Assembly: GCA_902611845.1 (NCBI GenBank)
Contig: CACMAX010000001.1
Coordinates: 62,001-126,000, forward strand
Length of the DNA: 64,000 nt
Direction: 5' to 3'
From: an uncultured Pelagibacteraceae bacterium
GTDB taxonomy: Bacteria > Pseudomonadota > Alphaproteobacteria > Pelagibacterales > Pelagibacteraceae
The notes below the pieces were generated by a model. The model saw nothing but the letters and a program-made list of their open reading frames with translations, searched no databases and was not told the origin of the DNA. Below are positions 2,910 to 51,698 of the stretch, piece after piece (position 1 is the stretch's first letter; the number at the start of each line of letters is the position of its first letter). The position numbers were made by a program, and so were the translations under genes.

Positions 2910-2927
2910 AAAACAAATATTTATTAA

Positions 2928-3184: not shown

Positions 3185-3190
3185 ATTAAT

Positions 3191-35536: not shown

Positions 35537-36251
35537 TTTTATTTTCTTTCCATTTAAATTTACTTACATTGCCAAATCTTGACCATTTAATTAAATAAGC
35601 TGGCTGTTTAAGTTTTGTACCTTTTATTGGACATACAAAAGCATTATCCTTTGCTGTTTTTTCAGTGCATATAACAATATAATTTGGGGTAACGCCACCA
35701 TCTAAAGCTACATTAATGTTACTTGCTTTTGAAAGAGCTTCTACTGCTTTGTAATAACTACCACCTTTTCCAAAACAAATTGCGGATGTTCTTGAAAAAT
35801 GTATTCCTATTTTTGCTTCTCCAATCACTTTATCATTTGGATTATAAAATTCGTAAAATTCACTATACGTTTGTCCATCAATATTTTTGCTGGAACTTTC
35901 ATATTTATCCCAATAACCAGTATTTCTTATTGGACAATTAATTTGCCCAGATTGTAAATAGTTTTTAAAATTTTTATCGCTCATCCCTTTTGAGATAAAA
36001 ACTGGAACTTTTTTATTATTAATATTTACTACTTTTATCATTAGTTGACTGTATGAAAATGTTCCCCTTTGTGTTTGTGTTGAAATATTTGAAATCATAC
36101 TTGCAACTTTTTCTGTTGCAGTTCTTACTTCTCTTTCAGTTCTCCACTTTGAAAAATTTGGAAATGAAATAGCTGAAATAATTGCCACAATTGTAATAAC
36201 AACTAGCAATTCTAAAATTGTAAAACCTTTAATGTCCTGATCTCGCTGCAC
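35517..36251 (-). CDS. fimT: FimT/GspH-type minor pseudopilin
   Basis: 244 residues with GTG as the likely start at 36251, giving leader MQRDQDIKG and mature FTILELLVVITIVAIISAI. The GspH/FimT order is supported by its position right after pilT and before pilV. Cysteines occur in INCPIRN, AICFGKGG and VICTEKT. The start lies 23 bases inside pilT. Confidence 0.83.
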   Translation of the reverse strand: MQRDQDIKGFTILELLVVITIVAIISAISFPNFSKWRTEREVRTATEKVASMISNISTQTQRGTFSYSQLMIKVVNINNKKVPVFISKGMSDKNFKNYLQSGQINCPIRNTGYWDKYESSSKNIDGQTYSEFYEFYNPNDKVIGEAKIGIHFSRTSAICFGKGGSYYKAVEALSKASNINVALDGGVTPNYIVICTEKTAKDNAFVCPIKGTKLKQPAYLIKWSRFGNVSKFKWKENKNAWERQ

Positions 36252-37245
36252 CTGGATCTATTTTACCTGACTTTATTAATTCCTCCAGTGATTTTTCCAT
36301 TGTGATCATGCCGTCACGCACTGCTGTTTGCATAATACTAGGTATTTGATGAATTTTTGCCTCTCTAATCAAGTTTTGAATTGGTGGAGTACACTTCATT
36401 ATTTCAAAAGCTCCAACTCTACCTGCGCCATCTTTTGTTTTTAACAATCTTTGTGTAACTACCATTTTTAATGATGTAGATATTTGAGCTCTAATTTGTT
36501 CTTGTTGTTCTGGTGGAAAAACATCTATAATTCTATTTATTGTACTTGGTGCTCCGCTAGTGTGCAGAGTTCCAAAAACAAGGTGACCCGTTTCAGCCGC
36601 TGTAAGTGCTAAGCTTATTGTTTCAAGGTCTCTCATTTCACCAACTAGAATTACATCTGGATCTTCTCTTAAAGCTGCTTTAAGTGCTGCAGCAAAAGAT
36701 TGAGTTTGTTTTCCAACCTCACGATGTGAAACAATACTTTTATTATCTTTATGAATAAACTCAACTGGATCTTCAACTGTAATTATATTAGAAGTTCTTG
36801 TTTTATTAATTTCATTTACAATGGCTGCAAGTGTTGTTGACTTTCCAGATCCTGTTGGTCCGGTAACAAGCACAAGTCCTTTATGAAAATCAACAATATC
36901 ATATAAGGCTTGAGGCAAACTAAATTGATCCATATCTGGAATTTTGCTTTCAACTCTTCTTAACACTGCAGCTGGTCCACTTATAGTTTTATAAAAATTT
37001 GCTCTAAATCTCAAACCACTTAGCATTACAGCTGAATCAAGTTCATGTGTTTTTTCAAATTTTTCAGCCTCTTGCTCATTACAGTTCATAGATATTAAGT
37101 CTTTTAAATCTTGAGCTGTTACATTAGTGCCTTCAACTTTCACAATTTCTCCTGTTTGTCTATATGCTAGTGGTGAACCAGATCTGATGTGAAAATCAGA
37201 AATCTTCTTATTATCTTTTGCTAATTGCTCTAATTTTTCAAACAT
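36229..37245 (-). CDS. pilT: Pilus retraction ATPase PilT
   Basis: A 338-residue hexameric ATPase that powers pilus retraction. It shows Walker A GPTGSGKSTT, the Asp box with ITVEDPVEFIH, Walker B DPDVILVGEMRDLET and the His box GHLVFGTLHT. It starts at 37245 and heads the minus-strand operon of minor pilins; pilMN diverges from it 154 bases away. No pilU follows. Confidence 0.95.
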   Translation of the reverse strand: MFEKLEQLAKDNKKISDFHIRSGSPLAYRQTGEIVKVEGTNVTAQDLKDLISMNCNEQEAEKFEKTHELDSAVMLSGLRFRANFYKTISGPAAVLRRVESKIPDMDQFSLPQALYDIVDFHKGLVLVTGPTGSGKSTTLAAIVNEINKTRTSNIITVEDPVEFIHKDNKSIVSHREVGKQTQSFAAALKAALREDPDVILVGEMRDLETISLALTAAETGHLVFGTLHTSGAPSTINRIIDVFPPEQQEQIRAQISTSLKMVVTQRLLKTKDGAGRVGAFEIMKCTPPIQNLIREAKIHQIPSIMQTAVRDGMITMEKSLEELIKSGKIDPGAARSGH

Positions 37246-37399: not shown

Positions 37400-39115
37400 A
37401 TGAAAAATCCTTTCGCAAATTTATTAAAAAAAAAACCCAAAGTTGGAACAGAATCGCCCGTTCCTAAAAAAGAGGATAAAAAGAAAAAAGAGGGTTTCTT
37501 TAGTAAATTTTTTAAAAATAGATTAGGGAAATCAGCAGTTCAAGGTGAAGAAATTGTTGGAGTTGAACTTTCTCCAACAGAAATAAGACTTGCTCAATTA
37601 ACTACTGATAAATCAAACAAATGGGTTTTAGAAAAGTTTTTTATTCATCCAGTTGAAGGATTAGATAAAAACGCAACAGTTTTAGACAATCAAGATAAAT
37701 TTGGTGAAGAACTTAAAACAGCTCTTCAAAAGTCAAAAATTACAACAACCAATGCAGCTATAGCAATCCCCGTAACAAGTGCAATTATAAGAGTTGTTAC
37801 TGCACCCTTGATGACAGATGAAGAATTAAGCAAAGCCATTGATACAGATTCTTTGTGGGAAAATCTTGTTCAATTAACTGATAACTTAAATGATTACTCT
37901 ATATTTCATCAAGTAATCAATAGAGATAAAACTGCAAATACTATGGATATATTATTTGTTGCTTCAAAATTATCAGATATCAACAGTTATACAGCAATCA
38001 TTAAAAAAGGTGGTTTGAATGCAGTTATTATTGACGTGAAATGTTTTGCTTTGAAGTCTGCAGTGGATCAAATGAACCAATTAGCGGGATCAATCGAAGA
38101 TGCCAACTTAACCGCAGTTTTAGAATTTGGTTTAGATGAAAATTATGTAATGATATTATATGAAAATAATCCTATAATTACAGATATCTTTATTAGATCT
38201 CAAGATAGAAATACACTTCAAAATTCAGATAATCAGGAAGAAATGGATGCATTAGTTAGAAGATACGTAACACAAGTCAAACAAGCTGTGCAGGATTTTG
38301 AGACAAAATATGAAAAAAGAATAAGGAATCTAAAAGTAGTCTCAAATTTAGAAAATGTTGAAATGTATTTAGGAACTTTTAGAAAAAATTTAGCAAATAC
38401 GGGTTTTAATTTATTAGATCCCATAAAAGAAATTAAAGTACCTGCTCAGTTAGAAGAAAGTGTAAAATTGGAAAACAGATCTTATCTTTCAACTGTAATT
38501 GGATTAGCATTCAGAAAACTAGATGTATTCGGCTATTATAAATTTGTAACTGCTGTTAAAAATATTAACCTTCTTCCAAATAGAGATAGTATGATTGCGC
38601 AAAAAAAAGCAAAAGTATTTTCAAACTTTGCATTTAAAGGTGCAATAGGGGTTATTTCAATCATATATATAGTTCTCTTTGGATTGTCTTTTTGGCAAAT
38701 TAATACATTGAATCAAAAATTAGTAGGTTATGAAGATATTTTACAAACACATGAATTGAGAACTCTTGAAAAAAACAAAGTCCAAAAAGAGGTAGCACTT
38801 ATTTTAAAATCTTTAAAAATTAGTAAATCAATTAAATCAAATAAAAAAGTCAGTTTTAGAGTATTAGCTCAAATAGCATCAGCTGTTCCAAAAAGAGTAA
38901 AATTTAATTCAATAGAATATAATGGATCAAATCAAATAATTATTGAGGGTACTGCGTCTAGCGACCAAGATATATTGAAACTAATCAGGAACTTGAATAA
39001 TAAAAAACTTATAATGCAAGCACAATTAGCTACTATGACATTGCCAGATGGGCAAATAGCTGGTGCCCCTACAATGAAGGGATTTAAAATAGCCTGTATT
39101 TTGGAGAGTGTATAA
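37400..39115 (+). CDS. pilM: Fused PilM-PilN type IV pilus alignment protein
   Basis: 571 residues combining two proteins that are normally separate. A basic leader (1-45) precedes an actin-like PilM domain (about 50-385; EIVGVELSPTEIRLAQL). At 388-395 is NINLLPNR, the conserved peptide by which PilN docks into PilM, followed by a membrane segment (about 414-438) and a periplasmic PilN domain. In the standard complex the cytoplasmic PilM ring binds PilN tails under the PilO/PilP/PilQ column; here that contact is covalently fixed. No stop or frameshift separates the halves. It overlaps pilO by one base. Confidence 0.88.
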   Translation: MKNPFANLLKKKPKVGTESPVPKKEDKKKKEGFFSKFFKNRLGKSAVQGEEIVGVELSPTEIRLAQLTTDKSNKWVLEKFFIHPVEGLDKNATVLDNQDKFGEELKTALQKSKITTTNAAIAIPVTSAIIRVVTAPLMTDEELSKAIDTDSLWENLVQLTDNLNDYSIFHQVINRDKTANTMDILFVASKLSDINSYTAIIKKGGLNAVIIDVKCFALKSAVDQMNQLAGSIEDANLTAVLEFGLDENYVMILYENNPIITDIFIRSQDRNTLQNSDNQEEMDALVRRYVTQVKQAVQDFETKYEKRIRNLKVVSNLENVEMYLGTFRKNLANTGFNLLDPIKEIKVPAQLEESVKLENRSYLSTVIGLAFRKLDVFGYYKFVTAVKNINLLPNRDSMIAQKKAKVFSNFAFKGAIGVISIIYIVLFGLSFWQINTLNQKLVGYEDILQTHELRTLEKNKVQKEVALILKSLKISKSIKSNKKVSFRVLAQIASAVPKRVKFNSIEYNGSNQIIIEGTASSDQDILKLIRNLNNKKLIMQAQLATMTLPDGQIAGAPTMKGFKIACILESV

Positions 39116-39768
39116 TGGATTTAAAAAATATTGACTTAAAAAATATAAATGTAAGCGATTTAGCTGCAAAATTAAAAACGGTTGATAAAAAAACTCTAAT
39201 TAAATTCGCAGCAGGTTTTTTTTCGGTAATTGTTTTTTTAATTGGATATTACGTAATTTTAAATCCAATAGTAAAAGATAAAAAATCCAAATATGATGAT
39301 AAAATTTTAAAAGAGCAAGAAATTTCACAGTTTGAAAGCGAAATTATAGCAAATAAAAAAAGATTAAAAAAACTTGAACCAGAATTTAAAAAGAGTTCAA
39401 CTTTATTTCATTCCAAAGCTGAAGTTGAAGGGCTTTATCAAAGTTTAAGTAAGTTTGCTGGAGTTAACGGATTAACCATTTCTAAAATTGAAAAGAAAAA
39501 ACCAAAACCAGTTTTAAAAAAAGGTGTTGCTCAACAAGCTGAAGAATTGTTAAAAAAGAGGGATATTTCATATTATCAAATTCCTGTTGAATATGAGATA
39601 AAAGGGAACTTTTTAGGATACATAAAATTCAAAAGATCGATTGCAAAATCACAAAAAATGTTAAATTTTGACAAAGAGACTATAAGTATAGTACAAAACG
39701 ATTCAACTGGAGCGATAATTGCAAAAGGAGAATTAACAATAGTGGGAATACCTGATGAATTCTTTTAA
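39115..39768 (+). CDS. pilO: PilO-type inner membrane alignment protein
   Basis: 217 residues with a cytoplasmic N-terminus, one membrane segment (about 31-52, LIKFAAGFFSVIVFLIGYYVIL), a coiled coil (about 65-95) and a ferredoxin-like periplasmic domain. Order and layout fit PilO, the partner of PilN. It overlaps pilP by 14 bases. Confidence 0.85.
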   Translation: MDLKNIDLKNINVSDLAAKLKTVDKKTLIKFAAGFFSVIVFLIGYYVILNPIVKDKKSKYDDKILKEQEISQFESEIIANKKRLKKLEPEFKKSSTLFHSKAEVEGLYQSLSKFAGVNGLTISKIEKKKPKPVLKKGVAQQAEELLKKRDISYYQIPVEYEIKGNFLGYIKFKRSIAKSQKMLNFDKETISIVQNDSTGAIIAKGELTIVGIPDEFF

Positions 39769-40219
39769 AAAATTAATACTTTTTTTTATTCTTATTCTGT
39801 TTCCTAACTTAGCTTTTTCAGACAATCACTCCTCCAATGCTGAAATTGTAGAAAAGGCAAAAGAAATTACTAAAACTTTGGAAACAAAAGTTGTTGAGGA
39901 GGAGGAAGATGTACCACTTAATGATCCTTTTGCTGGAAATGAAGGTACTAACTCTTCGATGAACCTTGAAACTGGTGAAGAACGAGATCCTTTAAGTTTA
40001 TATAATTTTAAATTATCTGGTTTGATATCTGGAACAGATGCAAGTTACATAAGTTTAACAGATGCGTCTGGAGATGTTATGACAATAACACTTGGTCAAT
40101 ATCTAGGTAAAGTCAAATTAATTGACTTAAGACTATCAGAAGCAATTTTTCAAAAGGAAGATAAGTCTTACATCATAATAGATTTTAATAATCAAGTAAG
40201 AGAGGCTAATGAGTATTAA
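39755..40219 (+). CDS. pilP: PilP-type pilus assembly protein
   Basis: 154 residues with a signal peptide (MNSFKKLILFFILILFPNLAFS) and an acidic linker, then a small beta domain (NFKLSGLISGTDASYISLTDASGDVMTITLGQYLG) like PilP/GspC HR domains. Typical PilP is a lipoprotein, but no cysteine follows this signal peptide, so it is probably a soluble periplasmic protein or keeps its N-terminal helix as an anchor. Assignment leans on position between pilO and pilQ. Confidence 0.78.
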   Translation: MNSFKKLILFFILILFPNLAFSDNHSSNAEIVEKAKEITKTLETKVVEEEEDVPLNDPFAGNEGTNSSMNLETGEERDPLSLYNFKLSGLISGTDASYISLTDASGDVMTITLGQYLGKVKLIDLRLSEAIFQKEDKSYIIIDFNNQVREANEY

Positions 40220-41756
40220 AAAATTTTATACATTTGCTTATTTGATTGTTTTAGCAATACTTCTAAATAGTTGTGGTCCAAATTCAAAATTTAATCAGAA
40301 ATATAACAAACCTTTTAAGCATAATACCCCACTAATTAAAAATGATATTAGAACAACTGGTCAGGCCGAAATCGCAAAAACATTAGAAATGGGCCCAAAA
40401 CCTGTTGAAGGTGATGCTGTTAAATTAAAGAAAAGAAGAAAAATTACATCTGAGACACAAAGAAATTACCTTCTTATCTCTGATGATTATCCACTACTTA
40501 AACAGAGAGTAACTTTAAAATTTAAAAATCTTGATTTTAAAGAAACTATGAAGTTGATGGGAAAAATTGGTGAAATAAATGTATTAGTTGGTGATGAAGT
40601 TGCTGGAGCAATATCTGCTGAGTTGATAGATGTTCCTTGGGACAAAGCCTTTCAGGCACTATTAGACATGAAAAATTACGCTTCTGACATAGATGTAAAT
40701 AGTAATTTAATCAGAATACACTCACCAGAAACACTGACTGCACAAGAAACTTATAAGTCAGAAAGGGCTCAGGCTGTAAAAAATAAAGTAGAATTAGAAG
40801 ATAGCGTTGAACCAATAATTTCTGAGATATTTAGATTATATTATATCTCTCCTGAATTGGCAAAAGCTACAATAGAAGAATTATTTCAATCAGGTGGAGA
40901 TGGATCAGCATCTCCTATAAAAATTACAGAGGAAACTGCCACCAGATCAATTATCGTGAGAGGTAAAGAAAGAGATCTTGATACAGTTGATAAAGTTTTA
41001 GCAGAGATAGATATTAAAACAGAGCAAGTATTGATAGAAGCATTTGTTGTAAAAGCTACATCGGAATTTGAGAGACAGCTTGGTACGAGACTTGGAGGAT
41101 ACTATCAAAGACAAGGTGAACAAATTGGTGGAGTAATAGGAACTACCAGCTCTTCAGGAACTTTAGATGATACCTCGGCTGCACTTGTACAAACAGCAAA
41201 AGATAGTTTGACAAATTTACCAGCAATTGGCGCAACAAGTGGTATTGGAGTATTAAAAAGAACAGGATCTGCAGTGTTGAAAGCTGAAATCACGGCTTTA
41301 GAAAAAACTGGAATAGTGGAAACCATATCTAATCCAAAAGTATTTACAATTAACAATCAGCCAGCTTCAGTAACTCAAGGAAAGGAAATCCCATATGAAA
41401 CAACTTCTGAAGGGACGACTACAACTTCTTTTAAAGAAGCTGCCTTAAAACTTCAAGTAACCCCAAGTATAATTGGTGATGGTAACGTATTATTAGACAT
41501 TCAAGTAAACAATGATGATGCGGATACTTCGCAATCAGAGCCTCCTATTACTAAGATGGAAATAACTACCAAACTTTTAGTCGCGGATGGGGATATTGTT
41601 GTGATTGGCGGAATAAAATCAAATAATAAGACAAAAGCAAATGAGCAAGTTCCAGGACTTGGAAATGTCCCAGTTATTGGCAACTTATTAAAGTATAAAA
41701 AGAATGAGGACAATTTAGAGGAATTGCTTATATTTATAGCACCAAGAATTTTATAA
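40209..41756 (+). CDS. pilQ: PilQ/MshL-type secretin, predicted lipoprotein
   Basis: Outer-membrane channel through which the pilus passes. 515 residues: signal peptide with a lipobox-like LLNSC near residue 22, a STN-type N domain (VTLKFKNLDFKETMKLMGKIG), an N1 domain with AEIDIKTEQVLIEAFVVKA, and the secretin core with VETISNPKVFTINNQPASVTQG and the final VPVIGNLLKYKKNEDNLEELLIFIAPRI. It is short for PilQ, lacks AMIN domains, and the lipobox recalls MshL; self-piloting could explain why no pilotin gene is seen. Confidence 0.88.
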   Translation: MSIKKFYTFAYLIVLAILLNSCGPNSKFNQKYNKPFKHNTPLIKNDIRTTGQAEIAKTLEMGPKPVEGDAVKLKKRRKITSETQRNYLLISDDYPLLKQRVTLKFKNLDFKETMKLMGKIGEINVLVGDEVAGAISAELIDVPWDKAFQALLDMKNYASDIDVNSNLIRIHSPETLTAQETYKSERAQAVKNKVELEDSVEPIISEIFRLYYISPELAKATIEELFQSGGDGSASPIKITEETATRSIIVRGKERDLDTVDKVLAEIDIKTEQVLIEAFVVKATSEFERQLGTRLGGYYQRQGEQIGGVIGTTSSSGTLDDTSAALVQTAKDSLTNLPAIGATSGIGVLKRTGSAVLKAEITALEKTGIVETISNPKVFTINNQPASVTQGKEIPYETTSEGTTTTSFKEAALKLQVTPSIIGDGNVLLDIQVNNDDADTSQSEPPITKMEITTKLLVADGDIVVIGGIKSNNKTKANEQVPGLGNVPVIGNLLKYKKNEDNLEELLIFIAPRIL

Positions 41757-43504
41757 TGCTTAAAATTAGTAGAGAATCAGAAATAAATTTAATTAATATT
41801 CTCATAGACCAAGATATTATTTCTGGAAAAGATTTAGTTGATATAAAAAAAGCTTCATCTGAAGGAGAAAAATCTCAAATCGAGGCAGTATTTGAATTAA
41901 AATTAACAGATGAGCAGAAAATTTTAGATCTGTTAGTTAATGAACAATCACTAGATGTTATTGATTTATCAACTATTGAAATTACAGATGAGATAAAATC
42001 TATTCTTCCATCAAATTATATTAATATGAATTTTATAGCTCCCTTTAAAATAGAGGGAAATATTTTGCATATTGCTATTCCTGATAGTTCAAAATTAAGC
42101 TTGATGAGAAATTTAAAAACCATCACGAAAAAGGACATTGAGCTTCATGCAGCTAAGATTTCAGATATTTCAAACTACATAGACAAATTGTTAGCCGATG
42201 GAGAAACTACAATGGCATCTATACAAAAAGCTAACAGTGAAAAAACAAAGACTTTCGATTATGATGTAGATGAAAACGCAGAGGTATTAGAAGAAAAACC
42301 AGAGGAAGATATTGAAGCAATTGAAAATGAGTCTGATGTAATTAAATTCAGTACAGCAGTTGTTGCGGAAGCTATTAAATCAGGTGTATCTGATATCCAT
42401 ATAGAACCCTACAGATTTACATCAAGAGTAAGATATAGGTTAGATGGTATATTAACCGAACAAGAACATTTCGCAAAATTTCTACATTCAAATTATGGAG
42501 CAGTCGTCACACGTTTTAAAATTATGGGTAAACTAGATATTGCTGAAAGAAGATTGCCACAAGACGGAGCTATTCCTTTTAAGATAGATGGAAAAGTAGT
42601 TGATCTCAGATTATCAATTTTACCAACTGCAAATAATGAGAGAATTGTCATGAGGGTTCTAAATAAAGATGCTGGAGATATAAGTTTAGAACAATTAAAT
42701 TTTGAAGAAACTGATCTGACAAATCTTCGTAAAGCCATACATGGAACTCAAGGCCTAGTTTTAGTTACTGGACCCACAGGATCAGGTAAAACAACTACAC
42801 TTTATAGTATTTTAAAAGAAGTATCTAAACCACACTTAAATATTTTAACTGCAGAAGATCCGGTTGAATATGAATTAGACGGAGTTGGTCAAGTTCAAAT
42901 TAAAGATGATATTGGTCTAAATTTTGCAGCAGCACTCAGATCTTTTTTAAGACAAGATCCAGAAATAATTCTTGTAGGTGAGATGCGGGATAAAGAAACA
43001 GTTGATATTGGATTAAAGGCAGCTCTTACTGGTCACCTAGTATTTAGTACACTTCACACAAATGATGCACCAAGTACAATTACCAGACTACAAAATATGG
43101 GAACGCCTGATTATTTAATTAGTGCAGCAGTATCTCTTGTATTAGCACAAAGACTTGCAAGAAAAACTTGTACAGAGTGTAGAGAGCCTGATGAAGATAT
43201 TACTCCAAAAGCATTAGCTGATTTGGGTTTTACCGTTGAGCAAGCTTCAAGAGCAAAAGTTCAAAAAGGTAAAGGTTGTGCAAAGTGCAAAGATACTGGA
43301 TATAAAGGTAGAATGGGAATTTATGAAATACTTAATGTCACAAAACCAATAAAAGAAGCTATTTTGAGAAAAGCAACAACTCCAGAATTAAAAGAAATTG
43401 CAACTAATGAAGGTTTTAGAACAATGCAAGATATGGGAAGAGAACTGATCTTAACAGGTGATCTAAATTTTAGAGAGTATGATAGAGTTCTATCAATGGA
43501 TTAA
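41756..43504 (+). CDS. pilB: Pilus extension ATPase PilB
   Basis: 582 residues. The N-terminal GspE-N/MshEN-like region (about 1-150) is followed by the ATPase: SDIHIEPYRFTSRVRYRLDG, Walker A GPTGSGKTTT, Asp box ILTAEDPVEYELDGVGQVQ, Walker B DPEIILVGEMRD and His box GHLVFSTLHTND. A zinc tetracysteine CTEC...CAKC lies near the end. Starts in the pilQ stop (TAATG). Confidence 0.95.
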   Translation: MLKISRESEINLINILIDQDIISGKDLVDIKKASSEGEKSQIEAVFELKLTDEQKILDLLVNEQSLDVIDLSTIEITDEIKSILPSNYINMNFIAPFKIEGNILHIAIPDSSKLSLMRNLKTITKKDIELHAAKISDISNYIDKLLADGETTMASIQKANSEKTKTFDYDVDENAEVLEEKPEEDIEAIENESDVIKFSTAVVAEAIKSGVSDIHIEPYRFTSRVRYRLDGILTEQEHFAKFLHSNYGAVVTRFKIMGKLDIAERRLPQDGAIPFKIDGKVVDLRLSILPTANNERIVMRVLNKDAGDISLEQLNFEETDLTNLRKAIHGTQGLVLVTGPTGSGKTTTLYSILKEVSKPHLNILTAEDPVEYELDGVGQVQIKDDIGLNFAAALRSFLRQDPEIILVGEMRDKETVDIGLKAALTGHLVFSTLHTNDAPSTITRLQNMGTPDYLISAAVSLVLAQRLARKTCTECREPDEDITPKALADLGFTVEQASRAKVQKGKGCAKCKDTGYKGRMGIYEILNVTKPIKEAILRKATTPELKEIATNEGFRTMQDMGRELILTGDLNFREYDRVLSMD

Positions 43505-43506
43505 AG

Positions 43507-44748
43507 ATGTCATCTGAGACATTTTCTTATAAAGGGATATCAGCCGGCAAATATATAGAGGGCGAAATTGAGGCTATTAATCAAGAAGAAGCCTCTTTTA
43601 AACTTAAAGAGCAAAAAGTAATAATCACAAATCTAACTAAAATTAAAAAGAAAAAAGCCGAAAAAGAAACAAAAAAAGGTGGAGGTTTCTCTTTTGGTAA
43701 AAAGAAAGTTAAACCTGAAGACGTAATGATTTTCTCTAAACAGTTTGCGACTATGGTAAAAGCAGGTTTGCCAATACTTAATGTTTTAGGGATGTTGAGA
43801 GATCAAATAGAACATCCAACTATGAAAGAAATAATAGAAGATGTTAGAAAAAATCTTGAGGGAGGTATAACTTTATCCAAATGTTTCGAAAAATACCCAA
43901 AGATATTTGATAATGTTTACATCAATCTTATAAAAGCTGGAGAGGCCAGTGGTAAATTAGATGTGTTCTTATTAAAATTAGTAGATTCACTCGAAAAAAG
44001 AGAGAAAGTAAAAAAGAAAATTAAAAGTGCATTAACTTACCCAGTGGTGATGTTCTCAGTTGCTATAATTGTAATGGTTTTTATGCTTATAAAAGTTGTT
44101 CCAGTTTTCGCTAAAATGTATGATGGAATGGGTGTTGCTTTACCAACTCCAACTGCAGTAATTATGAACGCCAGCAATTTTATGAGAGGATCTGGCGGAC
44201 TAACTCTTGGAATAGTGGTTATTGTTCTATTTATTGTATTTAAATATACAACAACAAAAATTCCTAAAATAAGATACAAATGGCATGAACGTGTTCTTAA
44301 AATGCCAGTTTTTGGAGACATGATATTAAAATCTTTAATAGCAAGAATTTCTCTTATCATGGGAAATTTAAGTGCAGCAGGCGTTAATTTACTTGAAAGT
44401 ATTGAGATAGCAAAATCAGTTAGTAATAATGATGTTGTAACACAAGCCTTAGAAAATGTAAAAAAAGGTGTTTTCTCTGGAGACACACTTACAAAACTTT
44501 TTTTAAAAGAACCTGTTTTCCCTCCAACATTTAGTCAGTTAATATCTGTTGGTGAACAAACAGGAAATTTAGACGAAATGTTTACCTCTGTTTCTTCATA
44601 TTATGAGGAAGAATTTGATACAGCTGTAGACAACATGTCTAGTTTAATTGAACCAATAATGATCGTTTTTATGGGAACGATGATAGGTGGCTTGATGATA
44701 GCAATGTACTCACCAATATTTAATGTTGGTGCAATTATCGGAGGTTAA
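43507..44748 (+). CDS. pilC: Pilus inner membrane platform protein PilC
   Basis: 413 residues with two GspF domains, each ending in membrane segments: KQFATMVKAGLPILNVLGML and later ARISLIMGNLSAAGVNLLESIE, with GEQTGNLDEMF before the last segment. It follows pilB by two bases and closes this plus-strand operon; its stop overlaps the stop of the convergent kinase gene. Confidence 0.95.
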   Translation: MSSETFSYKGISAGKYIEGEIEAINQEEASFKLKEQKVIITNLTKIKKKKAEKETKKGGGFSFGKKKVKPEDVMIFSKQFATMVKAGLPILNVLGMLRDQIEHPTMKEIIEDVRKNLEGGITLSKCFEKYPKIFDNVYINLIKAGEASGKLDVFLLKLVDSLEKREKVKKKIKSALTYPVVMFSVAIIVMVFMLIKVVPVFAKMYDGMGVALPTPTAVIMNASNFMRGSGGLTLGIVVIVLFIVFKYTTTKIPKIRYKWHERVLKMPVFGDMILKSLIARISLIMGNLSAAGVNLLESIEIAKSVSNNDVVTQALENVKKGVFSGDTLTKLFLKEPVFPPTFSQLISVGEQTGNLDEMFTSVSSYYEEEFDTAVDNMSSLIEPIMIVFMGTMIGGLMIAMYSPIFNVGAIIGG

Positions 44749-45173
44749 TAATTTATTTTTTTTGTTAGAACTAGGTGGTTGATCCAAGGTTTTTCACCTT
44801 CTTTAAATACAACTGCATCCATTATTTGTTGTATAAAAAATGTTCCTAAGCCTCCTGGTTTAACGTCATCTATTTTTCTATGTCTTACATTATTTTGATC
44901 AACAGGCCTACCTTTATCATAAAATCCAATTTCTAAATCTCCTTTATCTAATGAAATTTTAATTTCCATTTTATCTTCTGTATCTTCTCCTTGGTAGGCA
45001 TGTTTCACTATATTTTGAGCAGCTTCAGCAATTGCCAAAACTAATTCATCTTTTAAATCTTGGTCTATATTTACTTTTTCGAATACTTCTCTTGAAAATG
45101 ATCTGACATCTTTAAGGCTAGAAGATTTCACAACAAAATTCCTTTGTTCTGAAATTGCTGCTTGAGAATTCAT
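44745..45173 (-). CDS. RsbW/SpoIIAB-like anti-sigma-type serine kinase (HATPase_c)
   Basis: 142 residues, a stand-alone GHKL ATPase domain. The N box is AIAEAAQNIVKHAYQG, the G1 area FYDKGRPVD and the G2 area KPGGLGTFFIQQIMD. Proteins of this kind bind either a partner (often a sigma factor) or a STAS antagonist, which they phosphorylate on Ser. It lies three bases after the STAS gene on the same strand, as rsbV-rsbW do. The pair sits between pilC and pilA. No sigma factor gene is adjacent, so the target is open. Confidence 0.88.
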   Translation of the reverse strand: MNSQAAISEQRNFVVKSSSLKDVRSFSREVFEKVNIDQDLKDELVLAIAEAAQNIVKHAYQGEDTEDKMEIKISLDKGDLEIGFYDKGRPVDQNNVRHRKIDDVKPGGLGTFFIQQIMDAVVFKEGEKPWINHLVLTKKINY

Positions 45174-45176
45174 TTT

Positions 45177-45476
45177 TTATCCAAGGTTTAATATTTGCTC
45201 TAGTTTTGCCATCATTATTACTTTTAAAACTGACTTACTAATATCTTTAAGTATAACTTTTGTTCCAAGTTCGTTAGCTTTTTGATGACTTTCGATTAAT
45301 ACAGATATTCCTGAAGAGTCCATATATTGAACTTCTTTAAGATTTAAATGGACTTCTTTTTTAGCCTCTATTAAAGGCATTATTATTTCTTTAGCTTTAT
45401 CTGTTACGTCCATATCTATTTCACCGTCAAGGTGAACAATTGATATGTTTCCCTCTTCTGTAACTTTATATGACAT
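45177..45476 (-). CDS. STAS-domain anti-anti-sigma factor (RsbV/SpoIIAA-like)
   Basis: 99 residues forming one STAS domain. The phosphorylation site is in VQYMDSSGISVLIESHQKA (DSSG). Dephosphorylated protein would sequester the kinase encoded next to it; phosphatases of the SpoIIE class reset it. Three such phosphatases are in the window, two fused to ammonium transporters. First gene of a two-gene minus-strand operon. Confidence 0.9.
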   Translation of the reverse strand: MSYKVTEEGNISIVHLDGEIDMDVTDKAKEIIMPLIEAKKEVHLNLKEVQYMDSSGISVLIESHQKANELGTKVILKDISKSVLKVIMMAKLEQILNLG

Positions 45477-45618
45477 AAACGTTAATATTTATTAGATTTC
45501 ATTGTTAAATCAACAAAAATGACCCAAATTGAATACTTTTAGGCTATAGATATTGTCTTTTAAAAGTTATAATTTATATGTATATAGATATTTTTTATTA
45601 CAAATAGGATCTAAATTT

Positions 45619-46086
45619 ATGAAAAAAAATAATAAAGGTTTTACACTTATTGAGCTACTTGTTGTAGTAGCAATTATTGGAATTCTAGCAGCAGTAGGAG
45701 TAGTCGCATACTCTGGATATACATCGGGTGCGAAAAAGCAAGCTGCTAAATCAAATCACTCAGCTGTTGCAAAATATATTGCTGCCGAATTACAGAAATG
45801 TAATATCGGAGAGGACAAAGCAATGGAAGACAACTTAGATTGTAGTGGTAACACTGCTACAGCAACTGCTACAGCAGCGGCAAAAGCACTTAAAGACTTT
45901 AAAAATCCATACAAAACACAAGACCCAGCAGTTCAAACTACTGGAGATATTACTGCTGATACAGATGTAGGTTTTGTCAGAGTTATCGGTGATAATAGTA
46001 CAAGTAAAGTTACAGTGAAAGTTTGTATAGCAACTAAATGTAATTCAACTGACAATCAAGTATCAACCGAAATTACAGTGGAATAA
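45619..46086 (+). CDS. pilA: Major-type type IV pilin
   Basis: 155 residues from ATG at 45619, chosen because it gives the short leader MKKNNKG before FTLIELLVVVAIIGILAAVG; an upstream in-frame codon at 45553 would make an implausible leader. An AGGA Shine-Dalgarno lies nine bases before. After the helix the protein is Ala/Thr-rich with four cysteines (KCNIG, LDCSG, VCIATKC), allowing a C-terminal disulfide loop. The strong RBS and position suggest the main pilin. The upstream gap 45477-45618 has a TATAAT (45568-45573) without a clear -35. Confidence 0.9.
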   Translation: MKKNNKGFTLIELLVVVAIIGILAAVGVVAYSGYTSGAKKQAAKSNHSAVAKYIAAELQKCNIGEDKAMEDNLDCSGNTATATATAAAKALKDFKNPYKTQDPAVQTTGDITADTDVGFVRVIGDNSTSKVTVKVCIATKCNSTDNQVSTEITVE

Positions 46087-46113: not shown

Positions 46114-46575
46114 TTGGATAAAAAATTCAAAACTACTAAAAGTTCAGGTTTCACCTTAATTGAACTTTTAGTTGTAGTGGCAATATTAGGTATTATTGCA
46201 GCAATTGGAATTACTGCTTATAGCGGATATGTATCTTCAACAAAAATAAAATCAGCTCAAAATATTCTGAAACAAATAGCACTGGGCCAATCTGAATATT
46301 ATTCTGAAAATGGATATTATTTTACAAATAGTAGCAGTTGTGGAAGTAATCCAACTACTTCACAAGAAATTGAAGCACAATTATTTAATGGCTCTAAAGT
46401 AATAGTAGATCCAAATTCAAAAAAATCTCCAAAAGAGGCGACCACAGGTTTTTATATGTGTGTTGTTGATCATGCTACAAATTACAAGGCAAGAGCATAT
46501 CCTGATCCTCACAATTCTTCAAAATGCCAAATAGAATTATTAGGAGATGGTTCATTTAAAAAAACTAATTGTTAA
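46114..46575 (+). CDS. Second type IV pilin (PilE/PilA-like)
   Basis: 153 residues with a probable TTG start at 46114 (no ATG fits), leader ending SSG and mature FTLIELLVVVAILGIIAAIG. The region YYSENGYYF after the helix, then SSCGSN and cysteines at the end (YMCVVD, SKCQIELL, KTNC), matches the PilE-type minor pilins that close many pilus loci. It is 27 bases after pilA with no visible RBS, and the TTG start suggests lower expression. Confidence 0.85.
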   Translation: MDKKFKTTKSSGFTLIELLVVVAILGIIAAIGITAYSGYVSSTKIKSAQNILKQIALGQSEYYSENGYYFTNSSSCGSNPTTSQEIEAQLFNGSKVIVDPNSKKSPKEATTGFYMCVVDHATNYKARAYPDPHNSSKCQIELLGDGSFKKTNC

Positions 46576-46580
46576 CCCAA

Positions 46581-46826
46581 ATGAATTTTGAACCAATTAA
46601 AAAATTAATATCAAAATTCATAAACTCTGAAACTACAAAAAAACAAAAAATTTATTACACACTCAGTTTAGGTTGGATAATATTTATCGGTTATTTAACC
46701 TGGTGGAATGGACTTAGAAATCCGAGTTTAGATAAAAGTTTTAGATGGGATGAGTGGATTTGGTTTGGTCTTGTTCCTGCTTTATCTCCTTATATATTCT
46801 ATTATATCTGGAAGAAAAAAGAATAG
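46581..46826 (+). CDS. Small membrane protein of unknown function
   Basis: 81 residues from ATG at 46581, six bases after the preceding pilin gene. Two hydrophobic segments (about 23-40 and 61-78) flank a loop with WWNGLRNPSLDKSFRWDEW. A basic N-terminus suggests both ends lie in the cytoplasm. I do not recognise the family; co-transcription with the pilins is likely. Confidence 0.6.
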   Translation: MNFEPIKKLISKFINSETTKKQKIYYTLSLGWIIFIGYLTWWNGLRNPSLDKSFRWDEWIWFGLVPALSPYIFYYIWKKKE

Positions 46827-46892: not shown

Positions 46893-49043
46893 ATGGAGAA
46901 TGTAGATTTGGAATCTGTAAAGTCATTTGTTGATACTCTCTGGGTTATAGATTGCGCAATTTTAGTTTTCATAATGCAAGCAGGTTTTATGTGCATGGAA
47001 ACAGGTTTATCAAGACATAAAAATAGTATTAACGTAGCTCTTAAAAATGCAGCTGATTTTGGCTTAGCAGTTGTAATCTTTTGGTTATTTGGTTTTGGGT
47101 TGATGTTTGGAAAGAGTTTTAACGGCTATTTTGGAACTGATTTATTCTTTTTTAAAACTGATCAAGCTGAATACATGACATATTTTGTATTTCAGGCGAT
47201 GTTTGTAGCAACTGCAGCTACAATTGTTTCGGGTGCCGTTGCTGAAAGGATGAAGTTTAATGGTTATTTGATCATCACAATAATTGCTACAGGGATTATA
47301 TATCCAATTGTTGGTCATTGGGCATGGTCATCAAGTTATTTAAATAATATTGATGCTACAAGACAATTACTTGCAGTAACTGGACAAGTTAAAACAACTG
47401 GATGGTTAACAGATATTGGATTTGTTGACTTTGCAGGAAGCACAATAGTTCACTCAGTTGGTGGATGGATTGCACTTTCAGCTGTTTTAATTTTAGGGCC
47501 AAGAATAGGAAAATATTCAGACGCAAATAAAGGAAAATTTACAGGCTCAAGTTTTCCACTTGCAGTTTTGGGAACTTTAATTTTATGGTTTGGCTGGTTT
47601 GGTTTTAATGGTGGAAGCAATGGAGCTATGGATGAGGCAGTTCCTCTTATTTTAATAAATACATTTCTGGCAGCTTCTTTTGGATTATTAACGGGCCTTG
47701 GAATTTCATTTGCATTATTTAAAAAACCAGATCCTTATTATGTTATACTTGGACCACTCGCAGGGTTAGTTGCAATTACGGCTGGATGTAATTCGATGAC
47801 ATCCGTGACTTCAATATTTGTTGGAATTATAGGAGCGGTAGTTGCAATTTTTGTAAACGAATTTTTAAATAAATTTGAAATAGATGATGTTGTTGGAGCA
47901 GTGCCTGTTCATTTGGCAGCAGGAGTTTGGGGAACAATTGCTGTAGGGTTATTTAGCGATCTTGAAATTTTAGGCACAGGATTAACAAGACTTGAACAAA
48001 TCAAAGCACAATTTATCGGAATTGTATCGATCGGTATATTTTCATTTTTTGGTTCATATATTTTATTAAAAATTTTAAATTATTTTTATCCATTAAGAGT
48101 AAGTCCGTTACATGAAGAGTTAGGTTTGAATATTGCTGAGCATAATGCAACTTCTGTAGAACATGATTTAATTACAATTTTAGAAAAACAGTCTGAGTCT
48201 GGTGACTTAACAATCAGAGGTCCACAAGATCCATTCACTGCAGGAGGTGTTATTGGACTTTATTACAACAGATTGATGAGTAAATTAGAAACTAGTGAAG
48301 CTGAAAAGAAAGTATGGAGAGATAGAATTTCAAACGAAGTAAAACTTGCAGTAAAAGTTCAAGAAAACTTTTTACCAAAAAGAAATTTGGAAAATTATCC
48401 TGTGCATGGAATTAATATCGCTGCTAGAGAAGTTTCAGGAGACTTCTTTAGTTTTTATCCTCACAATGATAGTGTTTATTTTATTATTGCAGATGTTGCT
48501 GGTAAAGGAATTCATGCAGGAATGGTGATGGCAAAAGCATCAACTCTATTTGAAATAATGTCTAGAGATCAAGTAGATCCAGATGAAATGATGTTTCATA
48601 TGAATAATGATCTATTTTTAACTAAAACTGGAGGAATGTTTGTTACAAGTATATTAGGAGAATATAATATGAGGACTGATGAATTAAGATGGGTAAATGG
48701 AGGTCATCAGCCAGCTATAATTAGATCATCTTCTGGAAATTATGAGCAATTTGAAAGTAATTCTCCACCAATGGGTGTAATACTTCAAAAGGATAAGTCA
48801 GTCTACAAAACTCATAAAGTTAAGCTAGAAAACAACAGATTTTGCGCTTTCACTGATGGTTTATCTGAAAGTTTAAATAGCTCAGGTGAGGAAATAGGAA
48901 TAGACGGATCAATTCAAATAATTGAGAAAAACTTCAATAAGGATATAAAAAAACAATTAAATGAAATTACAAAAGAAGTAGTGAAAGTTGCAGGTGAAAA
49001 TAAATTAAGTGATGATTTAACGTTAATTTCGATTGGAAAATAA
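46893..49043 (+). CDS. Ammonium transporter (Amt) fused to a SpoIIE-type PP2C phosphatase, copy 1
   Basis: 716 residues. Residues 1-400 form a complete Amt domain of about 11 membrane segments, with FQAMFVA (Phe gate region), GHWAW (S1-site Trp), DFAGSTIVH (structural Asp and first pore His), WFGFNGGSNGA (S1-site Ser) and VPVHLAAGVWGT (second pore His). The conserved Amt C-tail follows (LRVSPLHEELGLNIAEHNA, from 401), then a helical linker (425-500) and a PP2C domain (502-716): SGDFFSF, IADVAGKGIHAGMVMAK, NGGHQPA, FTDGLSES, SDDLTLISIG. It likely links ammonium passage or occupancy to dephosphorylation of a STAS protein. No glnB/glnK is adjacent. Domain calls are firm; the signalling role is inferred. 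Confidence 0.95.
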   Translation: MENVDLESVKSFVDTLWVIDCAILVFIMQAGFMCMETGLSRHKNSINVALKNAADFGLAVVIFWLFGFGLMFGKSFNGYFGTDLFFFKTDQAEYMTYFVFQAMFVATAATIVSGAVAERMKFNGYLIITIIATGIIYPIVGHWAWSSSYLNNIDATRQLLAVTGQVKTTGWLTDIGFVDFAGSTIVHSVGGWIALSAVLILGPRIGKYSDANKGKFTGSSFPLAVLGTLILWFGWFGFNGGSNGAMDEAVPLILINTFLAASFGLLTGLGISFALFKKPDPYYVILGPLAGLVAITAGCNSMTSVTSIFVGIIGAVVAIFVNEFLNKFEIDDVVGAVPVHLAAGVWGTIAVGLFSDLEILGTGLTRLEQIKAQFIGIVSIGIFSFFGSYILLKILNYFYPLRVSPLHEELGLNIAEHNATSVEHDLITILEKQSESGDLTIRGPQDPFTAGGVIGLYYNRLMSKLETSEAEKKVWRDRISNEVKLAVKVQENFLPKRNLENYPVHGINIAAREVSGDFFSFYPHNDSVYFIIADVAGKGIHAGMVMAKASTLFEIMSRDQVDPDEMMFHMNNDLFLTKTGGMFVTSILGEYNMRTDELRWVNGGHQPAIIRSSSGNYEQFESNSPPMGVILQKDKSVYKTHKVKLENNRFCAFTDGLSESLNSSGEEIGIDGSIQIIEKNFNKDIKKQLNEITKEVVKVAGENKLSDDLTLISIGK

Positions 49044-49120
49044 TTTCCCCATTTTGATCTAATTTATTTTGTATGTTTTTTGTATAAATGATACGATTTA
49101 TAAAAAACAATAAGGAAATT

Positions 49121-49450
49121 ATGTTTAAAAAAATAGTCTTAACTATAGGTTTTCTATTATTTAGCACTAACTTATTTGCAGCCCAAACGCAAATCGCACA
49201 AGTAAATGGCATGATATGTATCAAGTGTCAAAAAATGGTCACTGAAGCATTACAAAAGGCTTGTCCTGATGCTACAGTTAAAGTTTCTTGGCCAGAAGGG
49301 GTTGCGGTATCTACTTTTGCAGATAAATCAAATTTATCTGAGGATGAATATAAAAACGCAATTTTAGGTACTGGATTTGAAGTAGTTAAAGTCATTAGTG
49401 TTGATGGCATAATTACAGACGCTGAAGAAGCAAGAAAACTTATAGATTAA
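49121..49450 (+). CDS. Small secreted protein with a heavy-metal-associated-like domain
   Basis: 109 residues from ATG at 49121, preceded by AAGGAA; an ATG at 49088 would add 11 residues before the signal peptide (MFKKIVLTIGFLLFSTNLFA). The mature part has NGMICIKCQKMVTEALQ, close to the GMxCxxC metal motif of HMA/CopZ domains, and the beta-alpha-beta pattern that follows. It sits between the two Amt-phosphatase genes. A periplasmic metal (copper-like) binding role is possible; the ligand is unknown. Confidence 0.75.
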   Translation: MFKKIVLTIGFLLFSTNLFAAQTQIAQVNGMICIKCQKMVTEALQKACPDATVKVSWPEGVAVSTFADKSNLSEDEYKNAILGTGFEVVKVISVDGIITDAEEARKLID

Positions 49451-49460
49451 AAAAAATTTT

Positions 49461-51698
49461 ATGACTGTAGCTGAACTCCAAATTTTGGTTGATAAGCTAC
49501 AGTCTAAAATAAGTCAGTTAGAGCTCACAAGTAAGGGAGCTATCAAAGCAACAGAGTTTAGATTAGAAGCTATACTACAAGCGAATTTAGATACATTTTG
49601 GTTATTAATTTGCGCTATTTTAGTTTTCTTGATGCAGGCTGGATTTATGTGTTTAGAATCTGGTTTATCAAGAAGCAAGAATAGCATTAACGTTGCTCTT
49701 AAAAATATTACAGATTTTGGAATAGCCGTAGTTACTTTTTGGGCCTTTGGTTTTGCATTAATGTATGGAACCAGTGTGATGGGCTTGTTTGGTAATAAAT
49801 TTTATTTTTTTACAACCAAGGTAGCTGGTTATCAAACATATTTTGTATTTCAGGCAATGTTTGTTGCAACAGCAGCAACTATCATATCTGGAGCTGTTGC
49901 TGAGAGGCTTAGATTTTTCTCATACGTAATAATTACTTTTATTACTTCAGGAATTTTATACCCAATAGTAGGCCATTGGGCGTGGGCTTTTGATTTTACG
50001 AATCCAACAGTAAAATTTGGTTGGCTAGGTAAGATGGGTTATTTAGATTTTGCAGGTGCATCTGTTGTTCATTCTGTTGGAGGTTGGGTGGCATTAGCAA
50101 TATTACTCATTATTGGAAGTAGAACAGGTAGATTTAGAAAAGATAAAGATAAAAAATTGTTTCAAGGAAGCAATACACCAATTGCTGCTCTTGGTGCTTT
50201 AATTTTATGGTTCGGTTGGTTTGGATTTAATGGTGGCGCAAATGGAGCAATGGATTTAAAAATTCCATTGATATTAATTAATACCTTTTTATCAGCATCA
50301 TTTGGTTTAATCTTTTCAAGTGCAATGGGTATTATCGTAATGAAAAAACCAGAGCCATTATTTATGATTACAGGTCCTTTGGCTGGTTTAGTTTCGATTA
50401 CAGCAAGTTGCGCTTATGTTAATCCATCAGAGGCAATATATATTGGAGCAATTGGAGGAATTTTATCTGGCTCAACAATTATTTTATTAGAGAAATTAAA
50501 AATTGATGATGTTGTTAGCGCTATACCTGTTCATCTAGTAGGAGGTATGTGGGGAACTATATCAGTTGCGATATTTGGTGATTTCGAAATGATGGGATTA
50601 GATAAAACAAGATTAGAACAATTAACAATTCAAATCATAGGAACATTTAGCATTGGTGGATTTTGCTTTTTTGCTTCATACATAATTTTTAAATCTATAA
50701 ATTATATTTATCCACTTCGAGTAGGTAAAATCCAAGAGGAGCTTGGTTTAAATATATCAGAACACAACGCATCAACAGATACTCACGAATTACTCGAAGT
50801 ACTAACCAATCAAGCAAAAACCGAAGATTATTCATTAAGAGCTCCCCAAGATCCATTTACTGATAGTGGTATTATTGGTACCCAATACAATTTTTTGATG
50901 GAAAAATTAGAACAAAGTGAAAAACAAAAAAATAAATGGAAAAACCGAGTTTCATCTGAAATTAAATTAGCAATGAATGTGCAGAGACGTTTAATGCCAA
51001 ATAGAGATTTGTCTAATTATCCAATTTATGGACTAAATATTCCAGCCAGAGAAATTTCAGGAGATTTTTACGATTTTTATTTACATGATGATCTTGTTTA
51101 CTTCACATTGTCAGATGTTTCTGGCAAAGGAGTTAATGCTGGTATGGTTATGGCTAAGGCAATTACTTTATTTAAAATTTTTTCTAGATTAAAATTTAGA
51201 CCTAATGAAATCCTACTTCAAATGAACAATGATTTAAATGAAACTAATCCGCCAGGCACCTTTATAACCTCAATAGTCGGATGCTATAATATTAAAACAG
51301 ACATTATTGAAATTGCAAATGCAGGTCATCAACCAGCTTTGTTGAGAAAAGGAAAGGATTTTGTTGAATATCCATCTTCTTCTACTCCTCTTGCAGTAGT
51401 CAAACATAAAAATGAAAATGTTTATAAGTTAGATACTTTTAAATTAGATGGAGGAAGAATATATTGTTTTACTGATGGTTTTTCAGAATGTATGGACGAA
51501 AATAAAAACGAAATAGGTATTGATGGAGTTAAGAAACTTTTACTTAATCATCAAAATTCTTCTTTACAAAAAGAACTTGAAAATTCTACTGAGGAAATAA
51601 GACTTAAAAGTCTTAAAAAAGATTACAAAGAGACTGGTATAAAAGCAAATAACGATATACTTGATGATGATTTAACTATCATCGGAATTGGGCATTGA
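49461..51698 (+). CDS. Ammonium transporter (Amt) fused to a SpoIIE-type PP2C phosphatase, copy 2
   Basis: 745 residues, paralogous to copy 1 along its whole length. It adds an N-terminal helix of about 40 residues (VAELQILVDKLQSKISQLEL) with coiled-coil character. The Amt domain keeps GHWAW, DFAGASVVH and IPVHLVGGMWGT (both pore histidines), but the S1-site serine position reads WFGFNGGANGA, Ser to Ala, which may alter substrate binding. The PP2C domain (520-745) has SGDFYDF, LSDVSGKGVNAGMVMAK, NAGHQPA, FTDGFSE and DDDLTIIGIG, with an insertion of about 20 residues before the last motif. It starts 10 bases after the HMA-like gene. Confidence 0.94.
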   Translation: MTVAELQILVDKLQSKISQLELTSKGAIKATEFRLEAILQANLDTFWLLICAILVFLMQAGFMCLESGLSRSKNSINVALKNITDFGIAVVTFWAFGFALMYGTSVMGLFGNKFYFFTTKVAGYQTYFVFQAMFVATAATIISGAVAERLRFFSYVIITFITSGILYPIVGHWAWAFDFTNPTVKFGWLGKMGYLDFAGASVVHSVGGWVALAILLIIGSRTGRFRKDKDKKLFQGSNTPIAALGALILWFGWFGFNGGANGAMDLKIPLILINTFLSASFGLIFSSAMGIIVMKKPEPLFMITGPLAGLVSITASCAYVNPSEAIYIGAIGGILSGSTIILLEKLKIDDVVSAIPVHLVGGMWGTISVAIFGDFEMMGLDKTRLEQLTIQIIGTFSIGGFCFFASYIIFKSINYIYPLRVGKIQEELGLNISEHNASTDTHELLEVLTNQAKTEDYSLRAPQDPFTDSGIIGTQYNFLMEKLEQSEKQKNKWKNRVSSEIKLAMNVQRRLMPNRDLSNYPIYGLNIPAREISGDFYDFYLHDDLVYFTLSDVSGKGVNAGMVMAKAITLFKIFSRLKFRPNEILLQMNNDLNETNPPGTFITSIVGCYNIKTDIIEIANAGHQPALLRKGKDFVEYPSSSTPLAVVKHKNENVYKLDTFKLDGGRIYCFTDGFSECMDENKNEIGIDGVKKLLLNHQNSSLQKELENSTEEIRLKSLKKDYKETGIKANNDILDDDLTIIGIGH

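Follow-up and report, generated by a model that had tools for sequence, protein, structure and literature searches.

Two receptors of the ammonium transporter (Amt) fold are the closest described relatives of the proteins considered here. Sd-Amt1 of Shewanella denitrificans is presumably an Amt-HAMP-diguanylate cyclase. In Ks-Amt5 of Candidatus Kuenenia stuttgartiensis, a buried two-ammonium site is formed by Q24, E31, N47, D50, T51, T109, and T112, a site described as absent from assimilatory Amts (PMC5764959). A separate literature concerns PPM phosphatases such as RsbU. One study describes RsbU activation as the formation of a coiled coil by the linkers, which dimerizes the phosphatase domains; it also argues that PPM phosphatases, kinases, and cyclases can trade sensor domains by way of crossing helical linkers (PMC12143880). 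Here we describe a 64,000-nucleotide stretch of DNA (the window) from contig CACMAX010000001.1 of an uncultured Pelagibacteraceae (SAR11) bacterium, in which two genes each encode an Amt domain followed by a SpoIIE/RsbU-type phosphatase domain. The source genome comprises 1.26 Mb in 26 contigs and is 91.67% complete.

We consider it probable that both Amt-SpoIIE fusions are ammonium receptors in the membrane, of the kind known from Ks-Amt5 and Sd-Amt1, in which a SpoIIE/RsbU-type serine phosphatase has taken the place of the usual output domain and acts on a STAS protein. In the mechanism that we favor, ammonium passing the outer filter would fill the second, buried site, as the residues at that site suggest. 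The HAMP-like helices of the linker would then move, and either the pairing of the phosphatase domains or the position of the switch helix would change, by analogy with Sd-Amt1 and RsbU. The phosphatase would finally strip the phosphate from the single STAS protein (45177..45476), which is co-located, is the sole STAS found, and has an intact phospho-serine motif.

Architecture of the Fusions

Fusion 1 (46893..49043, + strand) is 716 residues long and matches Pfam Ammonium_transp (PF00909) at residues 17–420 (E = 5e-111) and SpoIIE (PF07228) at residues 526–714 (E = 1e-35), both far above cut-off. Fusion 2 (49461..51698, + strand) is 745 residues long, with the corresponding matches at residues 47–438 (E = 2.9e-106) and 544–741 (E = 1.5e-26). 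The two open reading frames lie where the original prediction, made from the sequence alone, had placed a tandem pair of such fusions. That prediction called the genes adjacent; their coordinates stand, but a gene for a 120-residue protein (49088..49450) intervenes. The fusions represent two paralogous families that are ~54% identical.

The Amt Domain

The receptor-type Amt domain of fusion 1 (46941..48152, + strand) is delimited by its Pfam match and aligns with Ks-Amt5. An AlphaFold2 model of fusion 1 has a mean predicted local distance difference test score (pLDDT) of 85.5 and a predicted template modeling score of 0.62, and its closest solved structure is PDB 8qj4, titled 'Receptor Sd-Amt1 (ON-state)', with 46% identity over the Amt domain. 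The second-site residues of fusion 1 are Q29, E36, N52, D55, T110, and S113, all invariant in the alignment. Among the 138 fusion rows collected (124 unique, with some named loci and other genomes representing the same cell), the Q-E-N-D quartet and the T and S are kept wherever there are data, in 88 of 88 unique rows for fusion 1 and 34 of 34 for fusion 2 (122/122, leaving out two rows that start too late). Seventeen of 17 fusion rows read Q-E-N-D-F-T-S across the site, identical to Sd-Amt1, where position 51 is F. Amts fused to domains other than SpoIIE keep Q24, E31, N47, D50, and T109 (Ks-Amt5 numbering) in 43 of 44 cases with data. None of the order's 16 stand-alone Amts, of which 3 belong to the genus and 13 (several near-identical) to a sister family, keeps Q24, D50, or T109; they read A-E-N-(L/K)-x-S-S instead.

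The pore His pair is intact in both fusions, as originally predicted, and together with the Phe gate and the filter Trp it is invariant wherever sequenced. The filter Ser is intact in fusion 1, is replaced to give W-A in 34 of 34 unique fusion-2 copies, and is Thr in the Amt-SpoIIE of G1173 (L242), a genome from another genus of the family. These Ser/Ala/Thr differences hint that the receptors may be tuned to different ammonium levels.

A simpler explanation would be that the Amt half is an ordinary transporter, with the phosphatase merely tethered to the membrane or acting back on transport. The intact filter, Phe gate, and His pair of fusion 1 fit such a role, as do the positions at which Ks-Amt5 has pore-blocking residues: fusion 1 has F-M-L there and fusion 2 has F-L-L, similar to the F-L-L/M of the stand-alone Amts of the order. 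An ordinary transporter would not be expected, on the other hand, to show second-site Q, D, and T in every row with data when all 16 stand-alone Amts of the order have replaced them, to lose the filter Ser throughout one paralog, or to group with receptor Amts. We regard this explanation as very unlikely. A loss of transport argued from the pore-blocking positions was considered and rejected, as these positions do not separate receptors from the stand-alone Amts of the order.

In a tree calculated without the near-duplicate stand-alone sequences L025–L032 and without L162, L178, and L189, both Amt-SpoIIE families form one clade (support 100/100). This clade, the cyclase-type Amts, and Sd-Amt1 meet at an unresolved fork (80/13), and the wider group that includes the kinase-type Amts has moderate support (89/83) and stands apart from the stand-alone Amts of the order. 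Like other receptor Amts, the fusions carry a C-terminal linker and a cytoplasmic signaling domain. Judged by sequence and predicted structure, the Amt half of both fusions is of the known Ks-Amt5/Sd-Amt1 receptor type.

The Linker and the Phosphatase Domain

In the AlphaFold2 model, the linker of fusion 1 (48153..48401, + strand) consists of a helix at residues 422–436, a connector, and a helix at residues 450–492 that runs into the phosphatase. The original prediction had assigned signal transmission to a conserved Amt tail before the linker. This region is better described as a HAMP-like helix-connector-helix common to the receptor Amts that drive kinases or cyclases. Weak HAMP matches (E = 0.001–0.018, all sub-threshold) occur in three of three relatives of the kinase or cyclase type, and the Amt-SpoIIE linker would be HAMP-like by homology only. 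Receptor Amts look like a case of the sensor-domain exchange proposed in PMC12143880.

The phosphatase domain of fusion 1 (48402..49034, + strand) was assigned from Pfam, its metal-binding Asp residues, and a fold match. The Asp residues are D517, D534, D655, and D707/D708. The full set is found in 34 of 34 fusion-2 rows and in 87 of 90 fusion-1 rows; the exceptions, L057, L058, and L237, are cut before the last pair at the end of the locus. A model of the linker and phosphatase (pLDDT 83.3) shows the PPM fold with a long N-terminal linker helix and matches the phosphatase domains of Pseudomonas aeruginosa RssB and SiaA as well as RsbX and SpoIIE in a fold search. The phosphatase half, to judge from these features, is intact, in agreement with the complete SpoIIE/RsbU-type PP2C domain originally proposed.

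Distribution of Amt-SpoIIE

A search for the spread of the Amt-SpoIIE architecture, which the original prediction had suggested, found it confined to the SAR11 family among the class, phylum, order, and genus samples. Counting either paralog, 102 of 399 genus genomes, many of them incomplete, have a match at E = 1e-90 or better. At least one copy covers query residues 10–696 in 95 of these 102 carriers, G987 shows the Amt part only, and no internal stop codon was found in any listed match of the 102. In the near-complete (≥90%) genus genomes, 20 of 58 have a match and 38 do not. The order sample yielded matches in 58 of 297 genomes, 57 from the genus and one, G1173, from the other genus mentioned above. 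Apart from the source genome, no Amt-SpoIIE was found among 385 class and 398 phylum (Pseudomonadota) genomes, in partly overlapping draws that both include it, and the class and phylum matches listed end by query residue 548, at most the start of the phosphatase domain. When the junction between linker and phosphatase was used as the query against a named genome collection, the best 80 of 281 relatives were all titled Pelagibacteraceae, and because these are the best 80, the 80 named loci are biased toward close relatives. Most of them bear AG- names, which we take to denote single-cell genomes.

The effectors of other Amts were counted in 56 loci from the class and phylum samples, all outside the source genome. 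Of these, 45 encode long proteins and 11 encode Amts that stand alone; the count leaves out three more matches (G184:C169, G095:C48, and G298:C233). The outputs of the 45 long proteins, classified by motif, are kinase in 25, cyclase in 16, chemoreceptor in 2, PAS only in 1, none recognized in 1 (L162), and SpoIIE in none; Pfam, applied to 10 of the 45, agreed with the motif in 7 cases and supplied or corrected the class in 3 (L160, L170, and L182).

The Amt-SpoIIE fusions are a conserved SAR11 family. An assembly artifact, a decaying gene, or a functionless chance fusion could find support in a single genome, G1264 (L244), the only one of the 58 order-sample carriers with a 5'-truncated copy (622 residues, starting at about residue 95) and with stops within the matched stretch. 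Against this, many genomes that were assembled separately hold intact copies, and their catalytic and binding residues do not vary wherever there is sequence. We take such an origin to be refuted by this conservation and give it essentially no credence. A phage-borne gene was likewise rejected: a scan of IMG/VR gave 124 pattern matches and no relative.

The STAS-RsbW Switch

The protein that the original prediction put forward for a test of phosphatase activity is a genuine STAS protein of the anti-anti-sigma type (45177..45476, − strand), with a Pfam match, an NCBIfam TIGR00377 match above cut-off, and a DSSG phospho-site motif. Its gene adjoins that of an RsbW-like HATPase_c_2 kinase (44745..45173, − strand), which has a Pfam match and NCBIfam matches below curated cut-offs. 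The DSSG motif is kept in 45 of 45 unique STAS copies. For RsbW, all 58 unique copies have GGLG and 57 fit the N-box pattern, the one exception retaining its E and N. The pair thus has the parts of an Rsb-type switch, a phospho-serine STAS and an RsbW with N, G1, and G2 boxes. Because this is the sole STAS found in the 92% complete genome, in which one RsbW-like protein was also found, it is the candidate substrate of the phosphatases. Once dephosphorylated, free STAS would, by homology, bind the single RsbW-like kinase, and a client would be released.

The genome has three SpoIIE domains, those of the two fusions and that of a GAF-SpoIIE protein (20042..21331, − strand) encoded beside a prepilin peptidase gene. 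This GAF-SpoIIE would be a further input to the STAS-RsbW switch, as would a CHASE2-SpoIIE that relatives encode. The CHASE2-SpoIIE genes lie among FecR-like, autotransporter, or pilus genes (L041, 5697–7748; L047, 6105–8105; L052; L053). The switch itself also varies: L050, L052, L195, and L202 have two tandem STAS genes, not one, beside RsbW, and in L240 and L245 (G012 and G357) a divergent RsbW (~40% identical), next to which no STAS gene was recognized, is the neighbor of PilT in a divergent pilus cluster.

RsbW and Amt-SpoIIE occur together. Of the 42 near-complete order-sample carriers, 41 were tested (the source genome, known to have RsbW, was left out), and RsbW was found in 40 of these 41 (≥90% complete) versus 7 of 20 non-carriers that are 95–100% complete (Fisher 1.4e-7; 219 further order-sample non-carriers lie outside this count). 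The sole tested carrier in which RsbW was not found is G1264, which holds the 5'-truncated Amt-SpoIIE. Three of the seven RsbW copies in non-carriers are divergent and four are close; with close copies only, the Fisher value is 3.7e-10. The distance between Amt-SpoIIE and RsbW is 1.6–2.7 kb in 35 of the 40 and 10–29 kb in 4, and the two lie on different contigs in 1. In a less complete sample, RsbW was found in 11 of 14 carriers versus 4 of 23 non-carriers (Fisher 4e-4).

The original prediction also noted the lack of PII control in these organisms, and a search supported it, with 0 matches in the source genome and in 0 of 37 genus genomes, whereas 21 of 24 sister-family genomes have PII and the search control rang in 13 of 14. 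A PII-linked transporter was rejected on the same grounds. It is conceivable that the fusion replaces PII as a nitrogen-status sensor and controls nitrogen assimilation, the role of missing sensor first proposed for it, given the contrast between genus and sister family and the fact that ammonium is the predicted ligand. The distribution speaks against this: because 38 of 58 near-complete genomes have no match, the PII-less genus mostly does without Amt-SpoIIE. The usual neighbors, moreover, are pilus genes. For four copies unlinked to pilus or switch genes, ten Pfam-checked neighbors proved to be glycosyltransferases, a DNA polymerase V-type protein, a TauD dioxygenase, an alginate lyase, methyltransferases, and oxidoreductases, with no nitrogen regulator, glutamine synthetase, or PII among these ten. 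A role in place of PII is therefore improbable, and this part of the original prediction was not upheld.

The Type IV Pilus Neighborhood

The STAS and RsbW genes are situated on the opposite strand between pilC and the pilin genes, within a type IV pilus cluster. On one side lies an operon for PilM-N, O, P, Q (secretin), B, and C (37400..44748, + strand; assigned by Pfam, except PilP, which has no Pfam match and was assigned by position), preceded by a PilT-type ATPase (36229..37245, − strand; Pfam T2SSE). On the other side are pilin A (45553..46086, + strand; Pfam N_methyl), listed with a TTG start, for which the ATG at 45619 is more likely, and pilin B (46114..46575, + strand; Pfam N_methyl). 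An 85-residue protein with no family match (46569..46826, + strand) is encoded between pilin B and fusion 1 and is found in most pilus-linked Amt-SpoIIE loci. Scanned for promoters, the stretch that runs from the start of STAS up to fusion 1 gave 10 sites, no excess over the shuffle mean of 9.4. The prepilin peptidase PilD (21500..22261, + strand; Pfam Peptidase_A24) is the neighbor of GAF-SpoIIE. PilB (41756–43504) carries an MshEN domain by Pfam. The MshEN domain binds cyclic di-GMP.

This linkage recurs. Pilus or switch genes accompany 62 of the 80 named Amt-SpoIIE loci, with 6 more too short to tell. Among 37 genus genomes, RsbW tracks PilC, occurring in 15 of 16 with PilC versus 0 of 21 without it; the sixteenth, G003, has an RsbW fragment at a contig edge beside PilC. 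The cut was set at E = 1e-6 for HATPase_c_2, and no better match was found in the 21 genomes without PilC, whose weak matches sit in longer frames. In every one of the 15 genus genomes whose HATPase_c_2 match is clear, the 1.5-kb flanks of RsbW contain one or more pilus genes (L195–L209). In G1173, which belongs to another genus, STAS, RsbW, pilD, Amt-SpoIIE, a MerP-like gene, a pilin, and pilC/B/Q all lie within ~11 kb, with identities of 50% for Amt-SpoIIE, 45% for the MerP-like protein, and 31–41% for pilC/B/Q. A SAR11 autotransporter adhesin is described as always adjoining pilus and/or type II secretion genes (PMC12636525).

The gene between the two fusions (49088..49450, + strand) encodes a MerP/CopZ-like protein of 120 residues whose start resembles a signal peptide and which contains a CxxC motif; it has sub-threshold NCBIfam MerTP/CopZ/MerP matches and no Pfam match. 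It lies at most 60 bases upstream of every one of the 39 fusion-2 copies that are 700 residues or longer (some being one cell under two names; including L228–L241, L034, and L035), and the MerP-like gene of G1173 (L242) is also beside its single Amt-SpoIIE. The protein may cooperate with the receptor from the periplasm. Elsewhere in the window, at 2824–3200, tRNA-Leu and transfer-messenger RNA predictions on opposite strands overlap by 20 bases.

Output of the Switch

The linkage suggests that the client of RsbW is most likely a component or regulator of the type IV pilus, rather than an alternative sigma factor. That the pilus is the output of the switch seems to us close to an even prospect, falling a little short of it. 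The complete chain, in which external ammonium directly switches the type IV pilus on or off in many SAR11 bacteria, with two Amt receptors (Ser and Ala filters) feeding a single STAS-RsbW switch that has the pilus machinery, not a sigma factor, as its client, is a tentative proposal and, taken as a whole, rather doubtful.

The same switch could alternatively work through a sigma factor, with RsbW sequestering RpoD or the heat-shock factor RpoH, so that ammonium would set transcription or growth globally and the pilus would be incidental or one target. Both RsbW and STAS match anti-sigma and anti-anti-sigma families (RsbW below curated cut-offs), and there is a precedent in Chlamydia trachomatis, whose RsbW binds the primary sigma factor (PMC4552016). 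Only two proteins with sigma-70 region 2 (620 and 299 residues) were found in the 92% complete genome. These are the possible targets; no further, dedicated sigma-70 factor was found there. The 21 sampled genus genomes without PilC must have a primary sigma factor too, and RsbW was not found in them; where it does occur in the window, it is embedded in the pilus cluster. We judge sequestration of a sigma factor unlikely, while keeping it in view.

Several observations weigh against our preferred reading of a receptor phosphatase that acts through STAS-RsbW on the pilus. The second-site residues alone do not prove a receptor, because the Q, D, and T of that site are also seen in 5 of the 11 stand-alone Amts taken from Pseudomonadota outside the order. 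Pfam HAMP gave no match in two of two Amt-SpoIIE linkers. Three of the 14 carriers in the less complete sample (G017, G020, and G021; 55–74% complete) have no RsbW match, 4 of its 23 non-carriers have one, and none of the co-occurrence counts represent independent trials because the genomes are related. Twelve of the 80 named loci are unlinked to pilus or switch genes despite at least 2.5 kb of upstream sequence. Being neighbors, RsbW and PilC can also be lost together in assembly gaps. Pilus linkage, finally, is not proof of output.

Comparison with Known Systems

Among heterotrophs of the surface ocean, SAR11 bacteria are described as the most abundant (PMC12636525). A phosphoproteomic study of SAR11 HTCC1062 reports that the kinase RsbW was found and that no annotated phosphatase was predicted to act on proteins (PMC13198564). 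The locus described here would supply SAR11 with sensor phosphatases, along with their likely substrate and the place where they probably act. If the proposal holds, it would amount to a circuit from ammonium to surface behavior in a streamlined ocean bacterium thought to be poor in regulation. The chain could be rebuilt from a few genes in Escherichia coli, so that gating and output are directly testable.

The locus shares features with several described systems. Like AmtB-GlnK, it would use an Amt channel in ammonium signaling, but the output is fused, and no PII was found in this genome or in the 37 genus genomes. The switch follows the RsbU-RsbV-RsbW logic described for Chlamydia trachomatis (PMC4552016); the output there is the primary sigma factor, whereas the genes here are in a pilus cluster. 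The phosphatase half resembles the RsbU, SpoIIE, SiaA, and RssB PPM phosphatases in its fold, its metal Asp motifs, and the long helix running into the domain. The sensor here is a polytopic Amt, however, whereas RsbU uses the partner RsbT (PMC12143880) and SpoIIE and RssB use other sensors. With Ks-Amt5 (PDB 6eu6), the fusions share the Amt fold, retained pore residues, and the buried-site letters (PMC5764959). They differ in overall sequence (39% identity), in the histidine kinase output of Ks-Amt5, in its T51 and T112 (F and S here), and in its extra pore-blocking Y30 and F34 (M and L in fusion 1, L and L in fusion 2).

The resemblance to Sd-Amt1 (PDB 8qj3, 8qj4, and 8qpf) includes the 46% identical Amt domain, the Q-E-N-D-F-T-S second site, and an alignable C-terminal linker; the difference is the output, presumably a cyclase there and a SpoIIE phosphatase here. 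In Nostoc, HmpU-HmpV-HmpW forms a PP2C-STAS-RsbW switch that controls hormogonium motility and is connected with the type IV pilus, a cyanobacterial system without an Amt sensor. Among the matches listed from the open-access literature, there was no Amt-PP2C/SpoIIE fusion and no receptor Amt in a pilus cluster. What appears to be new is a phosphatase output on a receptor Amt; a kinase output was already known from Ks-Amt5 and a cyclase output from Sd-Amt1, the latter to judge in part from its PDB title. One sensor domain would then be found with four kinds of output, namely kinase, cyclase, chemoreceptor, and phosphatase.

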